Part shown: in pieces, positions 3,748 to 6,080 of the stretch | How the letters are laid out: each line of letters starts with the position of its first letter | Position numbering within the stretch: position 1 is the first letter of the stretch | NCBI RefSeq assembly: GCF_014279775.1 | Contig: NZ_CP047961.1 | Coordinates: 1,054,001 to 1,118,000 of the forward strand | DNA from: Synechococcus sp. PROS-9-1 | GTDB taxonomy: Bacteria > Cyanobacteriota > Cyanobacteriia > PCC-6307 > Cyanobiaceae | DNA: 64,000 nucleotides | Direction of reading: 5' to 3' | The notes under the pieces: generated by a model | Databases searched by the model: none | Seen by the model: only the letters and a program-made list of their open reading frames with translations | What the model was told of the DNA's origin: nothing | Program-made: the position numbers and the translations under genes

Positions 3748-4242
3748 ATGAGCGTTGTTCGGGATCTGATTCTCAAAGCAGATGACGATCTGCGTTACCC
3801 AAGCAGCGGTGAACTGCGATCAATGGTTGATTTCCTCAGCCAGGGGTCGATTCGTTTATCTGTTGTTCGAAGTCTCACTGAGAACGAGAAAAAAATCATC
3901 GATGAATCAGCGAAACAGCTGTTCACTCGTAAACCTGAATACGTTGCTCCTGGAGGCAACGCCTTCGGTCAGAAGCAACGTGCCCAGTGCCTGCGTGACT
4001 ACAGCTGGTATTTGCGCCTTGTCACCTACGGAGTTCTTGCTGGCAGTACAGAGCTGATTCAACAGATTGGTCTTGTGGGTGCCCGTGAGATGTACAACAG
4101 CCTTGGCGTTCCCATGCCTGGAATGGTGGAAGCCATGCGCTGCATGAGAGAGGCGTCCTTGGCCCTCCTTTCCGAAGACCAGCAAGCCGTCGCATCTCCT
4201 TACTTTGATTACCTCATTCAAGGAATGCAGACTTCGACCTAA
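3748..4242 (+). CDS. apcD: Allophycocyanin alpha-B subunit (phycobilisome terminal emitter)
   Basis: Phycobiliprotein of 164 residues. It matches ApcD rather than ApcA in its N-terminal ADDDLRYPSSGELRS segment and in YVAPGGNAFGQKQRAQC. The chromophore-binding cysteine is C81 in QCLRDYSWYLR, followed by TYGVLAG and YNSLGVPMPGMVEAMR, which are typical of the family. ApcD sits in the phycobilisome core as a red-shifted terminal emitter that passes energy to the photosystems. The reading frame also opens at a TTG at 3736, but the ATG at 3748 gives the standard N-terminus. It is monocistronic and followed by a strong terminator. Its presence is a main reason for calling the source a phycobilisome-containing cyanobacterium. 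Confidence 0.94.
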   Translation: MSVVRDLILKADDDLRYPSSGELRSMVDFLSQGSIRLSVVRSLTENEKKIIDESAKQLFTRKPEYVAPGGNAFGQKQRAQCLRDYSWYLRLVTYGVLAGSTELIQQIGLVGAREMYNSLGVPMPGMVEAMRCMREASLALLSEDQQAVASPYFDYLIQGMQTST

Positions 4243-4263
4243 ACCGTCTTGCTTTCATCTGTT

Positions 4264-4290
4264 AGCCGCCCATAGAGGCGGCTTTTTTAA
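4264..4290 (+). terminator. Rho-independent terminator of apcD
   Basis: A perfect 7-bp stem AGCCGCC (4264-4270) / GGCGGCT (4277-4283) with a six-base loop is followed directly by a T run (4283-4288). It lies 21 bp past the apcD stop codon on the same strand. Confidence 0.88.
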
Positions 4291-4496
4291 TGCAAACGAC
4301 ATTCAAAAATGGATTGCATGCGTCTCAGGTGAGACACTTCATGAGTCCATTTAATAGTCTTAGCTTGGACCTCTGAGAAACACATTTGATTGCTGAGGGC
4401 GGGCATGCCTTGCTCTACTGAGTCTGGCTTTTCATAGCGGATTTCAGCTGCGCTTCCCTTCAAAGCGAATCTCGTTTCGGTAGGAATGATCCACAC
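4287..4496 (-). CDS. Small hypothetical protein (possible remnant), 69 aa
   Basis: An open frame of 69 codons starting with GTG at 4496. I do not recognise the product. The residue mix (WIIPTETRFALKGSAAE, EIRYEKPDSVEQG) looks protein-like, and the frame stays open upstream to an in-frame TGA at 4551-4553 with no ATG, GTG or TTG in that part. This could mean a GTG start, a 5'-truncated pseudogene, or chance. Its 3' half contains the perfect palindrome at 4322-4335, and a cluster of GACTC repeats lies directly upstream. Its 3' end abuts the apcD terminator. Coding status is uncertain. Confidence 0.35.
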   Translation of the reverse strand: MWIIPTETRFALKGSAAEIRYEKPDSVEQGMPALSNQMCFSEVQAKTIKWTHEVSHLRRMQSIFECRLH

Positions 4497-5036
4497 AATC
4501 TTTGTTTCATGTCGAGCAAATAAGACTCTTGCTGAGTCTAGAAATAAGACTCATCTGAGGCTGTTGACTCATTAGTTTGATGCGGCGAAAGCTTGCGCCA
4601 CTGCTTCCATCCCGCGCAAGGGGATCCAGGTTAGTGAGCTGGCAAGGTCGACCATTGTTCTTGCGTCACTGTGTCTACAGCAGGTACGCAAGCTTTAAAA
4701 ACGAAGCTACAACTTGTATTTGCGTTGGCCAAGAATTGCTTGGACATTGGATTGTCAGGCTTGGACAGGATGTAGGCGGTCATTCGGTTGGTCTTTGATG
4801 CCCAACTGGTCTTTAGACCTTGATGATCTATTGCTTGTTGTTGGCTCATTCAAGGAAGGGGGTATTACAGGCGTATGCATTTAAAACAATGGAAAAATGA
4901 GTTCATAACAACAAGCCCTTCTGGGTCTCGGATGGGACTCTTACTTAGACCTGCGGCAAGACTCAATTGAGACGAATAATTCTCTTTTGTCTAGCCTGAG
5001 TCTTGTGATGCGTCTAGTCTTGGTACTCAGTTGAGA
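4322..5036. repeat. Cluster of GAGTC/GACTC motifs and CTCA-N2-TGAG palindromes
   Basis: Nine GAGTC/GACTC pentamers occur in about 715 bp (4343, 4420, 4524, 4534, 4548, 4566, 4936, 4960, 4998); equal base use predicts about 1.4. Four CTCA-N2-TGAG palindromes lie at 4324-4333, 4550-4559, 4962-4971 and 5026-5035, the first extended to GTCTCA/TGAGAC. A perfect inverted repeat AGACTC-TTGCT-GAGTCT sits at 4523-4539. A 37-bp unit at 4524-4560 recurs at 4936-4972 with 25 of 37 identical bases and the same 24-bp spacing between its two GACTC cores. The copies form two groups, 4322-4571 and 4936-5036, around a 365-bp spacer. The stretch 4497-5036 holds no gene I trust; one minus-strand frame at 4631-4849 (72 codons) is not convincing. 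An operator array or decayed mobile repeat are both possible. Confidence 0.6.
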
Positions 5037-6080
5037 CTATTGAGGCTCTTTGTCCCTGTAGAGCTCCCGAAGCATCTGATAGGCCTCATTCAGTCGTCTC
5101 ATGCCATCCGTAGATCCACCGGCATCTGGGTGCGCTTCGATCGCTTTTTTCTTGTATGCGTCACGGATGGAACGCAGCGTTAGGGAAGCTCCAGCTTGCG
5201 TGGGTAGATCTAGCAATCTCAGCGCGCCATGCAGGGTCATGGTGGATTCCAAGGTTTCAAATGACGTCACACGCCGACTCCGTTTGAAGCGGTTCACAAA
5301 GCGACGAATCAAAGTTGGGATGCGATCCTCCACGCTGCCTGCGGCAAATGGATCTTCGAGAACTGCAGCAGCGACAATCACATGTTCAAATTTTGGAGAC
5401 TGTACGGACCAATCAGCGCAGACATCCTGCATCGATTGGTTCACCTGGCTCCAGGTGAAGGTGCGTCCCTCACTTCCATCCAATTGGGGCCAAATATCTC
5501 GGGCCATCCAGAGCATCACAGCCTCAAGAACCGTTGCTCCTGGCATGGATCCATACAAACTGGTCCAATGATCGATGGCTTTATTGCAGCAAGCGGTTAG
5601 GTGATCGAAGCTCACCACAGGGACAAAGGGACTATCACGCCGATCTTCTTGTGTTTGAGGCTGTTGCAGGCTGGTTCGGATCGCCTGCGTACGGCTTCGC
5701 ACAAATCCAGGTAAGTCGATGCCACGACTTTTTGTGCTGCTCTCCCTCGCTTGAATGGTGTCGGGGGTGAGCACTGAAGCTGCGTCTTGCTCCTTCGGGT
5801 CTTGACTACTGCGAACCAAGACGATGGCCCGGTCTTCGTCGTAAGAGGGTTCTGATGGTGGCTGGTCTCGCTGTAATTCGATAGCAGCAGCAGAGGTGGC
5901 CACGGATAAGACCCCTGGATCCTCGTTGTCGCCAGAGTCGAAATCTGTCTCATCAGTCCAGATTTCTTCCAGCAATCGCGTTAAGCAATCGCCTCTGGAC
6001 CTGATGCACCACTCTTTCTTCAGCTCGTCGAGGCGGCCAACGAGATGATCAGGAAGTTCAAGTGTGATCCGACGCCCCAT
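5037..6080 (-). CDS. Ribbon-helix-helix / J-domain fusion protein
   Basis: A 347-residue protein with an unusual domain order. Residues 1-45 (GRRITLELPDHLVGRLDELK) fit a ribbon-helix-helix fold, normally a dimeric DNA-binding domain that inserts a beta-ribbon in the major groove. The middle is an acidic, Ser/Gln-rich linker to about residue 140, then an alpha-helical domain with several tryptophans. The last ~55 residues are a J domain with the HPD triad at 317-319 (AHPDAGG), the signature needed to stimulate an Hsp70. No Gly/Phe region, zinc finger or DnaJ C-terminal domain is present. The gene lies 42 bp downstream of the DUF3370 gene on the same strand, perhaps as one transcript. Its stop codon touches the palindrome cluster. 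Function unknown; a regulator coupled to DnaK is inference. Confidence 0.7.
   Translation of the reverse strand: MGRRITLELPDHLVGRLDELKKEWCIRSRGDCLTRLLEEIWTDETDFDSGDNEDPGVLSVATSAAAIELQRDQPPSEPSYDEDRAIVLVRSSQDPKEQDAASVLTPDTIQARESSTKSRGIDLPGFVRSRTQAIRTSLQQPQTQEDRRDSPFVPVVSFDHLTACCNKAIDHWTSLYGSMPGATVLEAVMLWMARDIWPQLDGSEGRTFTWSQVNQSMQDVCADWSVQSPKFEHVIVAAAVLEDPFAAGSVEDRIPTLIRRFVNRFKRSRRVTSFETLESTMTLHGALRLLDLPTQAGASLTLRSIRDAYKKKAIEAHPDAGGSTDGMRRLNEAYQMLRELYRDKEPQ

Follow-up and report, generated by a model that had tools for sequence, protein, structure and literature searches.

Background

Several described systems resemble parts of the locus presented here. Chromosome dimer resolution by dif/XerCD uses a single short palindrome near the replication terminus, made of two 11-bp arms around a short centre of 6-8 bp, and this host site is also found on mobile DNA (IMEX). 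In the account given by PMC5357621, a single recombinase suffices in the XerS/difSL system of streptococci and lactococci, which acts on a 31-bp site with a centre enlarged to 11 bp, and in the archaeal XerA/dif system, which appears to be FtsK-independent and has its 28-bp dif at the terminus. The same account describes the cer site of ColE1 as a 30 bp core with ~180 bp of accessory DNA, on which PepA and ArgR form the complex needed for dimer resolution. In type II partition, as outlined in PMC5016525, ribbon-helix-helix (RHH) dimers of ParR bind one per parC repeat, a two-block arrangement of the repeats is possible, and the assembly is wrapped by the DNA. Published dif profiles failed in 5/5 cyanobacteria (PMC3025954), a later genome paper states that cyanobacteria have no predicted dif (PMC6416890), and xerC is described as rare in cyanobacteria (PMC5101192).

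We analysed a 64,000-nucleotide stretch of the chromosome of Synechococcus sp. PROS-9-1 (hereafter the window; G000 denotes the whole genome), together with the corresponding loci of related genomes. We lean towards the reading that the gap at 4243-5036 is a terminus site, in which a palindrome is dif-like, a core tyrosine recombinase cuts it without FtsK, and the protein encoded alongside, RHH-J, fills flanking arrays as an accessory complex. The palindrome probably marks the place where marine Synechococcus and Prochlorococcus separate joined chromosomes, and such a terminus site would be of the kind that the published genome-wide search missed in cyanobacteria.

Organisation of the gap

The gap is bounded on both sides by gene 3' ends, those of a phycobilisome (allophycocyanin-like) gene (3748..4242, + strand; PF00502, E=2.6e-58) and of the convergent RHH-J gene (5037..6080, - strand), so that it holds no promoter of either. 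The phycobilisome neighbour is the same in 28 genomes of the genus (the window's genome counted) and in G034. At its left end the gap carries a hairpin followed by a T-run (4264..4288, + strand), recognised by reading the sequence and present as a stem in the minimum-energy fold, which is probably the intrinsic terminator of the phycobilisome gene.

The remainder of the gap is occupied by three arrays of GAGWCTC-like sites, to which no strand is assigned, and by the palindrome. Array 1 (4322..4371), drawn from the site list and an alignment, has sites at 4322, 4345, 4357 and 4368, in steps of 23, 12 and 11 bp. Array 2 (4523..4570), drawn from the site list, has a 12+12 bp chain at 4523, 4535 and 4547 with a further site at 4566. 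The 31-bp palindrome, the proposed dif-like crossover site, lies at 4661..4691 (+ strand), and array 3 (4924..5038), with sites at 4924, 4935, 4947 and 4959 followed by others over 4989-5035, reaches the RHH-J stop codon. Between the palindrome and array 3, short blocks (TTGGCCA, CTTGGACA twice, GCATTTAAAACAATGGAAA and ATAACAACAA; 4725..4915, no strand assigned) are strongly conserved in an alignment of eight close relatives.

A small gene in the gap was considered and rejected: the open reading frames at 4287-4496(-), 4577-4798(+) and 4631-4849(-) have no Pfam match, and the alignment of the eight relatives contains a single-base indel near 4780, while its conserved blocks show no codon-like pattern on visual inspection.

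The 31-bp palindrome

Conservation within the gap is strongest in the palindrome at 4661-4691, TTGCGTCACTG-TGTCTACAG-CAGGTACGCAA, whose arms TTGCGTCACTG and CAGGTACGCAA surround TGTCTACAG. A preliminary description of the window, which was silent on this element, had treated the DNA around it as a spacer between two clusters of motifs. Used as a DNA query against 99 relatives, the gap matched 26 of them, mostly over the same 28-33 bp of this spacer, and the palindrome was present in 30/30 gaps with 0 to 9 differences from a 33-base form. Over 72 sites, the arms occupy positions 5 to 15 on either side of the centre, leaving a 9-bp centre, which is the two-arm layout of a dif site.

Within the family, 123/400 genomes have the palindrome at two mismatches or fewer (reversed control pattern: 2/400), and it is a single match in 120 of these 123, bearing in mind that some of the two-mismatch matches look like chance (e.g. 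G111, G184, G241). A scaffold was also defined as GCGTnnCTG-N9-CAGnnACGC, with a threshold of 12 or more of its 14 fixed bases; its exact form was found in 39/64 family genomes and in 7/324 genomes outside the family (control 3/324). One genus of the family, g9 (G038, G130 and G157 among others), gave no match to the palindrome pattern in 10/10 genomes and provides a natural loss for comparison; its 99%-complete genome G038 is also without RHH-J.

The arms covary across genera (AACTG/CAGTT, ACCTG/CAGGT, ATCTG/CAGAT). Among the 72 sites, position 8 from the centre is C-G in 26, A-T in 7 and T-A in 5, and position 9 is A-T in 49 and C-G in 9. In some genera the arms pair perfectly over 12 positions, as would the hairpin of a conserved transcript, and the whole gap folds with a z-score of -2.8 on the + strand. 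A structured or small RNA could also account for the T/G pair that adjoins the arms in 53/72 sites, a possible wobble that by itself does not discriminate RNA from a DNA site. This explanation seems to us quite improbable, since many stems keep mismatches that are not RNA wobbles: at positions 8-9 these are mainly C.T (14), A.G (15) and A.A (11), while at the outer pairs 14-15 G.T (16) and A.C (13) are about equal. In the window's genus the inner pairs are often C.T, A.G or A.A, common to many species; such shared mismatches are unexpected of an RNA stem but could persist in a DNA site with two unlike half-sites. Rfam at gathering score returned nothing in the gap (its sole match in the window is a tRNA), and the two sub-threshold matches at E up to 5, at 4200-4304, lie outside the palindrome. 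An RNA hairpin would also leave the near-terminus position and the phage copies described below unexplained.

The RHH-J protein and its linkage to the palindrome

RHH-J, the proposed array binder, combines an N-terminal ribbon-helix-helix domain, a middle region and a C-terminal DnaJ domain with an HPD motif; in an alignment of 73 RHH-J proteins, at least 95% have this motif. In the window's own protein both domains score below the Pfam cut-offs, DnaJ (PF00226) at 24.6 bits (E=2.7e-5; cut-off 27.8) and RHH_1 (PF01402) at 12.9 bits (E=0.11; cut-off 20.5 bits); among ten orthologues, four exceed the cut-off for DnaJ and two that for RHH_1. The AlphaFold model was unusable (pLDDT 36).

At E<1e-60, RHH-J was found in 48/99 relatives, all of them within the family. 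Of these 48 genomes, 47 have a palindrome (at least 12 of the 14 fixed bases) about 0.25-0.9 kb downstream of the stop codon of RHH-J, usually between the arrays; this count is made of 44/45 genomes with measured sites (246-880 bp) and of G033, G035 and G040, assigned by coordinate comparison. RHH-J is likewise present in 30/30 genomes picked for having the palindrome, three of which (G034, G039, G053) also belong to the 48. Over 71 sites, the distance from the RHH-J stop to the palindrome is 246-1125 bp (median 361); G015, with 114 bp, is excluded because the contig edge is reached without RHH-J, so that the distance is not real.

The one exception to the linkage with the scaffold, G047, has a reduced form, GTACTG-N9-CAGTAC, and another reduced form, with CAGCAC as right arm, lies about 400 bp from the RHH-J stop in G215. 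Both genomes appear to be high-light Prochlorococcus, where the palindrome version is much reduced.

Degenerate stretches resembling the RHH-J N-terminus and containing stop codons were seen at G000:C1:1963214-1963606, with similar ones in G007 and G020; they are perhaps remnants of a second copy.

Periodic arrays

The motif counts of the preliminary description were reproduced. Nine GAGTC/GACTC pentamers (4343, 4420, 4524, 4534, 4548, 4566, 4936, 4960, 4998) stand in the gap, where 5000 first-order Markov sequences built from it have a mean of 1.6 (p=0.0002), and CTCA-N2-TGAG occurs at 4324, 4550, 4962 and 5026 (Markov mean 0.03), the sole four occurrences in the 64-kb window. The two 37-bp units described there are indeed identical at 25/37 positions, each having its GACTC cores at a distance of 24 bp (4524/4548, 4936/4960), and the coordinates place 365 bp between the two clusters. 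A genome-wide search found CTCANNTGAG at 34 places, 4 of them in the gap (reversed control: 16), and GACTCANNTGAG at two places, both in the gap (reversed control: 1 forward, 2 reverse).

Alignment of eight close-relative gaps brings the pentamers and the short palindromes into one pattern of heptamers near GAGWCTC that recur every 11 or 12 bp. Several CTCA-N2-TGAG palindromes arise where two such heptamers adjoin, and the underlying regularity is therefore an 11-12 bp periodic array. Spacings of RGWCY in the eight gaps fall at 11 (9 pairs), 12 (28), 23 (18), 24 (12) and 35 bp (8); smaller peaks stand at 20, 32, 44, 52 and 55, and few pairs fall elsewhere. The same count over 404 kb of host DNA gives a flat distribution. 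The four-site chain at window position 4924 is the longest, and the sole four-site one, in these 404 kb; the motif is thus not equally dense elsewhere, as it would be if it were a general property of intergenic DNA.

The arrays extend over the family. In 74 family regions, pairs at 11, 12, 23, 24 and 35 bp number 503 against about 21 in shuffles (144 against 5.1 in 29 regions of the genus, 359 against 16.2 in 45 regions of other genera), in related genomes whose trials are not independent. The 74 regions include 30 loci (L140-L169) picked because the palindrome had already been found there; G034, which is among both these loci and the gaps, was counted once, and G015 is still counted in these statistics and in the profile of array positions. 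Taken singly, 62/74 regions are significant (P of 0.05 or less) and 12/74 are not, so the expected conservation of position next to RHH-J holds for most relatives. Array sites flank the palindrome on both sides and are concentrated between -400 and -50 and between +200 and +400; over 72 loci taken together, a single site falls within 50 bp of it, and the interval from -950 to -700, readable in 10-32 loci, has none.

Regularly spaced short palindromic sites adjoining an RHH gene have the form of an RHH operator or centromere array. The view of the preliminary description, an operator array for a multimeric DNA-binding protein, stands as to the array itself, in which distances of 11/12, 23/24 and 35 bp prevail throughout the family at the 3' end of RHH-J, and is weakened as to the operator. 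Repression by RHH-J, or by another repressor, of its own gene or of a promoter in the gap would agree with the fact that palindromic site arrays adjoining an RHH gene are typical of autoregulation; we judge it improbable, as the arrays are at the 3' end of RHH-J and of the convergent gene, not at a start, and as no apc match was found in the fetched flanks of G059 and G042, although both carry the palindrome. The other suggestion made there, the arms of a decayed mobile element, was based on the presence of repeats on both sides of the spacer. It can hardly be upheld: many genera keep the same position and spacing and the 31-bp site in the middle, and a genome search with the 851-bp region at E up to 0.001 gave no further copy.

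The main rival to a recombination site is a terminus centromere or organiser of the ParR/parC or MatP type (MatP acts in the Ter domain), in which RHH-J would coat the arrays as a segrosome and tether the terminus to the divider, the palindrome being a second protein-binding site. The blocks of 11-12 bp pitch on both sides, adjoining an RHH gene, have an anatomy similar to that of the one-dimer-per-repeat, two-block parC sites cited above. We regard this alternative as rather unlikely: the 11-9-11 anatomy of the palindrome is left unexplained by it, as are phage palindromes that have no such arrays.

Position relative to the replication terminus

In 18/18 contigs that start at dnaN (17 of 20 fetched, on which the first 4 kb were read, plus G000; the other three were dropped), the palindrome lies at 0.466-0.558 of the chromosome. 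With a single match in nearly all genomes that have it, the element has the copy number and near-terminus position of a dif site, G000 being the exception with respect to skew. In 7/8 genomes, the 100 kb to the left of the site have a higher GC skew than the 100 kb to its right; the two sides do not differ in G156. The local cumulative skew maximum lies 2, 4, 12, 15, 16, 26, 57 and 76 kb from the site in the eight genomes, the largest distances being those of G099 (76 kb) and G156 (57 kb); a two-segment fit likewise gives 2 to 76 kb, under which G010 shifts from 4 to 61 kb. G000 itself fits less well: its GC-skew maximum lies 118 kb (5%) from the site and both 100-kb flanks are positive overall, so that either the skew lags a rearrangement or termination does not occur exactly here.

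A local reversal of GC skew was also noticed around an integrase at 925113-925592 (G000:C1:914001-934000, L070), which suggests a genomic island.

In the 1,657,990-bp contig of G215, which we take to be Prochlorococcus MED4, RHH-J ends at 829,627 and the core of the reduced palindrome is at 829,207-829,221. This falls inside the ter/dif region at 826,000-832,000 where the DNA of MED4 vesicles is reported to peak (PMC10913375). The dif positions of that paper are stated there to be 'obtained from the literature' (its refs 9, 32 and 33), and a MED4 dif position is already in print. A terminus site here might explain why Prochlorococcus vesicles are rich in terminus DNA.

Recombinases and FtsK

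The window's genome has four matches to PF00589. One of them, a core tyrosine recombinase of 399 aa (G000:C1:1515511-1516689), has a strong orthologue (E below 1e-99) in 48/60 relatives: in 35/37 within the family, the remaining two genomes being 58-70% complete, and in 13/23 from other families, at 50-54% identity. Its best NCBIfam match is XerS, at 19 bits for a cut-off of 267, which places it at the margin of the curated Xer families. The gene is not adjacent to the palindrome, and no physical link between gene and site was seen. The recombinase is present in families nearly without the palindrome (7/324, control 3); if it is the enzyme, their sites therefore differ.

A 372-aa integrase was set aside, being patchy among relatives and often broken. 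This tyrosine recombinase (G000:C1:1906114-1907091) is intact in a few genomes of the genus, and fragments with stop codons occur in several others. The third integrase is a protein of 288 aa, at 925113.

No XerC/XerD pair was recognised in the window's genome, and no match to the FtsK profile PF01580 was found there at E up to 0.001, which leaves a dif/XerCD-FtsK system without a recognised FtsK; the same search matched 10/14 control genomes, Synechococcus elongatus not being among the ten.

Copies of the palindrome on cyanophage contigs

T7-like and other cyanophages carry the palindrome of the host's proposed terminus site. In IMG/VR, an 18-base version of the palindrome was found on 11 contigs; these matches are weak alone, because an altered-arm control pattern with 18 fixed bases gave 7. 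The claim is carried by a 23-base version, found on 18 contigs where, by our own estimate, well under one is expected. Together, 26 viral contigs (L234-L244, L295-L309) have the palindrome, in 14 clusters at 90% identity, and in none of the 26 does it lie inside an open reading frame of 100 aa or more.

Fourteen of these contigs encode a T7-type terminase large subunit, and in 13 of the 14 the palindrome lies 505-701 bp past the terminase stop; IMG/VR contigs being redundant, the 13 represent 8 of the 14 clusters. Others have T7-type RNA polymerase or head-tail adaptor genes. The uncultured phage AP013539 (Autographiviridae, Pedosvirus) also has the palindrome (L271:6263). The podoviruses S-RIP1, S-RIP2, S-CBP4, WH11-B, P-SCSP1f and the uncultured S45-C4 showed none at the 12-of-14 threshold within the stretches read, which extend up to 4 kb to either side of their terminase matches; the Prochlorococcus-type pattern matched 0 viral contigs; and blastn of the 33-bp core against named phages and plasmids gave short partial matches only, at E of 3-4 and in unrelated organisms.

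The phage copies are without the rest of the host locus. RHH-J, an apc gene and the core recombinase are absent from the fetched stretches of the 26 contigs, and the recombinase was not found in viral contigs by a scan for exact short peptides, which is sensitive to close relatives only. Array-type sites within 500 bp of the phage palindrome occur at 0.75 per kb, against 0.24 in the host background and 7.0 in RHH-J regions, with a few array-type pairs on 6/26 contigs and none on 20. On the host side, no prophage stands at the site in the 29 gaps measured, which are 517-1145 bp long, and no integrated phage in the genomes read. Borrowing of the host recombinase and processing of genome ends are both possible roles for a palindrome near the terminase, and by analogy the phage copies resemble mobile DNA that uses a host Xer site.

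Proposed mechanism

The palindrome has two 11-bp arms, occurs once per chromosome in the region of the terminus and has copies in phages; by comparison with described sites, its best reading is that of a site for site-specific recombination. For the enzyme that cuts it, the binder of the arrays, the accessory role and the DnaK step, we infer the following scheme. The palindrome would be a dif-like crossover site for resolving chromosome dimers, cut by the 399-aa core tyrosine recombinase. As no FtsK was found in the genome, this resolution would be FtsK-independent, and something else must restrict recombination to dimers. RHH-J dimers would fill the GAGWCTC arrays on both sides, one per 11-12 bp, and the resulting nucleoprotein complex would pair or wrap two sites and so limit recombination to dimers, in the manner of plasmid cer/XerCD. 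The J domain of RHH-J may then recruit DnaK to dismantle the complex.

A fuller and more tentative version, of which we remain doubtful, is an FtsK-less terminus machine in which the RHH/DnaJ polymer acts both as synapse and as topological gate for a single recombinase and is dismantled by DnaK at division; T7-like cyanophages would have taken over the bare site, placing it beside their terminase gene, in order to borrow the host recombinase.

Comparison with known systems

In the part of the literature that was searched, neither the palindrome nor the arrays were found described, and no account of RHH-J at this position was met. The RHH-J arrays are the most novel part, a dif position in MED4 being already in print. 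To our knowledge, a protein that joins a co-chaperone domain to a DNA-binding one and is encoded next to a site of this type would be new.

The dif/XerCD system is matched by the single short terminal palindrome with two 11-bp arms and a short centre, and by the carriage of the host site on mobile DNA. It differs in that the centre is 9 bp here (31 bp in all), not 6-8, and in that neither an FtsK match nor an XerC/XerD pair was recognised; compared by eye, the arms TTGCGTAnCTG do not appear to follow the dif consensus. The XerS/difSL system shares the single recombinase, the 31-bp site and the enlarged centre, yet xerS is located beside difSL and uses FtsK, whereas here RHH-J is beside the site and the recombinase, with its 19-bit match, is elsewhere. 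XerA/dif of archaea shares the single recombinase, the apparent independence from FtsK and the terminus site; its dif is 28 bp long, and flanking arrays are not mentioned in the relevant text of PMC5357621.

The closest parallels to the flanking DNA are cer and parC. RHH-J and its arrays fit, by analogy, a cer-like accessory role or a ParR-like wrapping role. With cer, the locus would share a core of about the same length next to accessory DNA on which a complex is built, but the flanking DNA here consists of periodic sites that apparently serve an RHH-DnaJ protein, and it is chromosomal, not plasmid-borne. With type II ParR/parC, it would share RHH dimers set one per repeat in two blocks; here, however, the repeats lie near the terminus, around a conserved palindrome, and the RHH protein carries a DnaJ domain.
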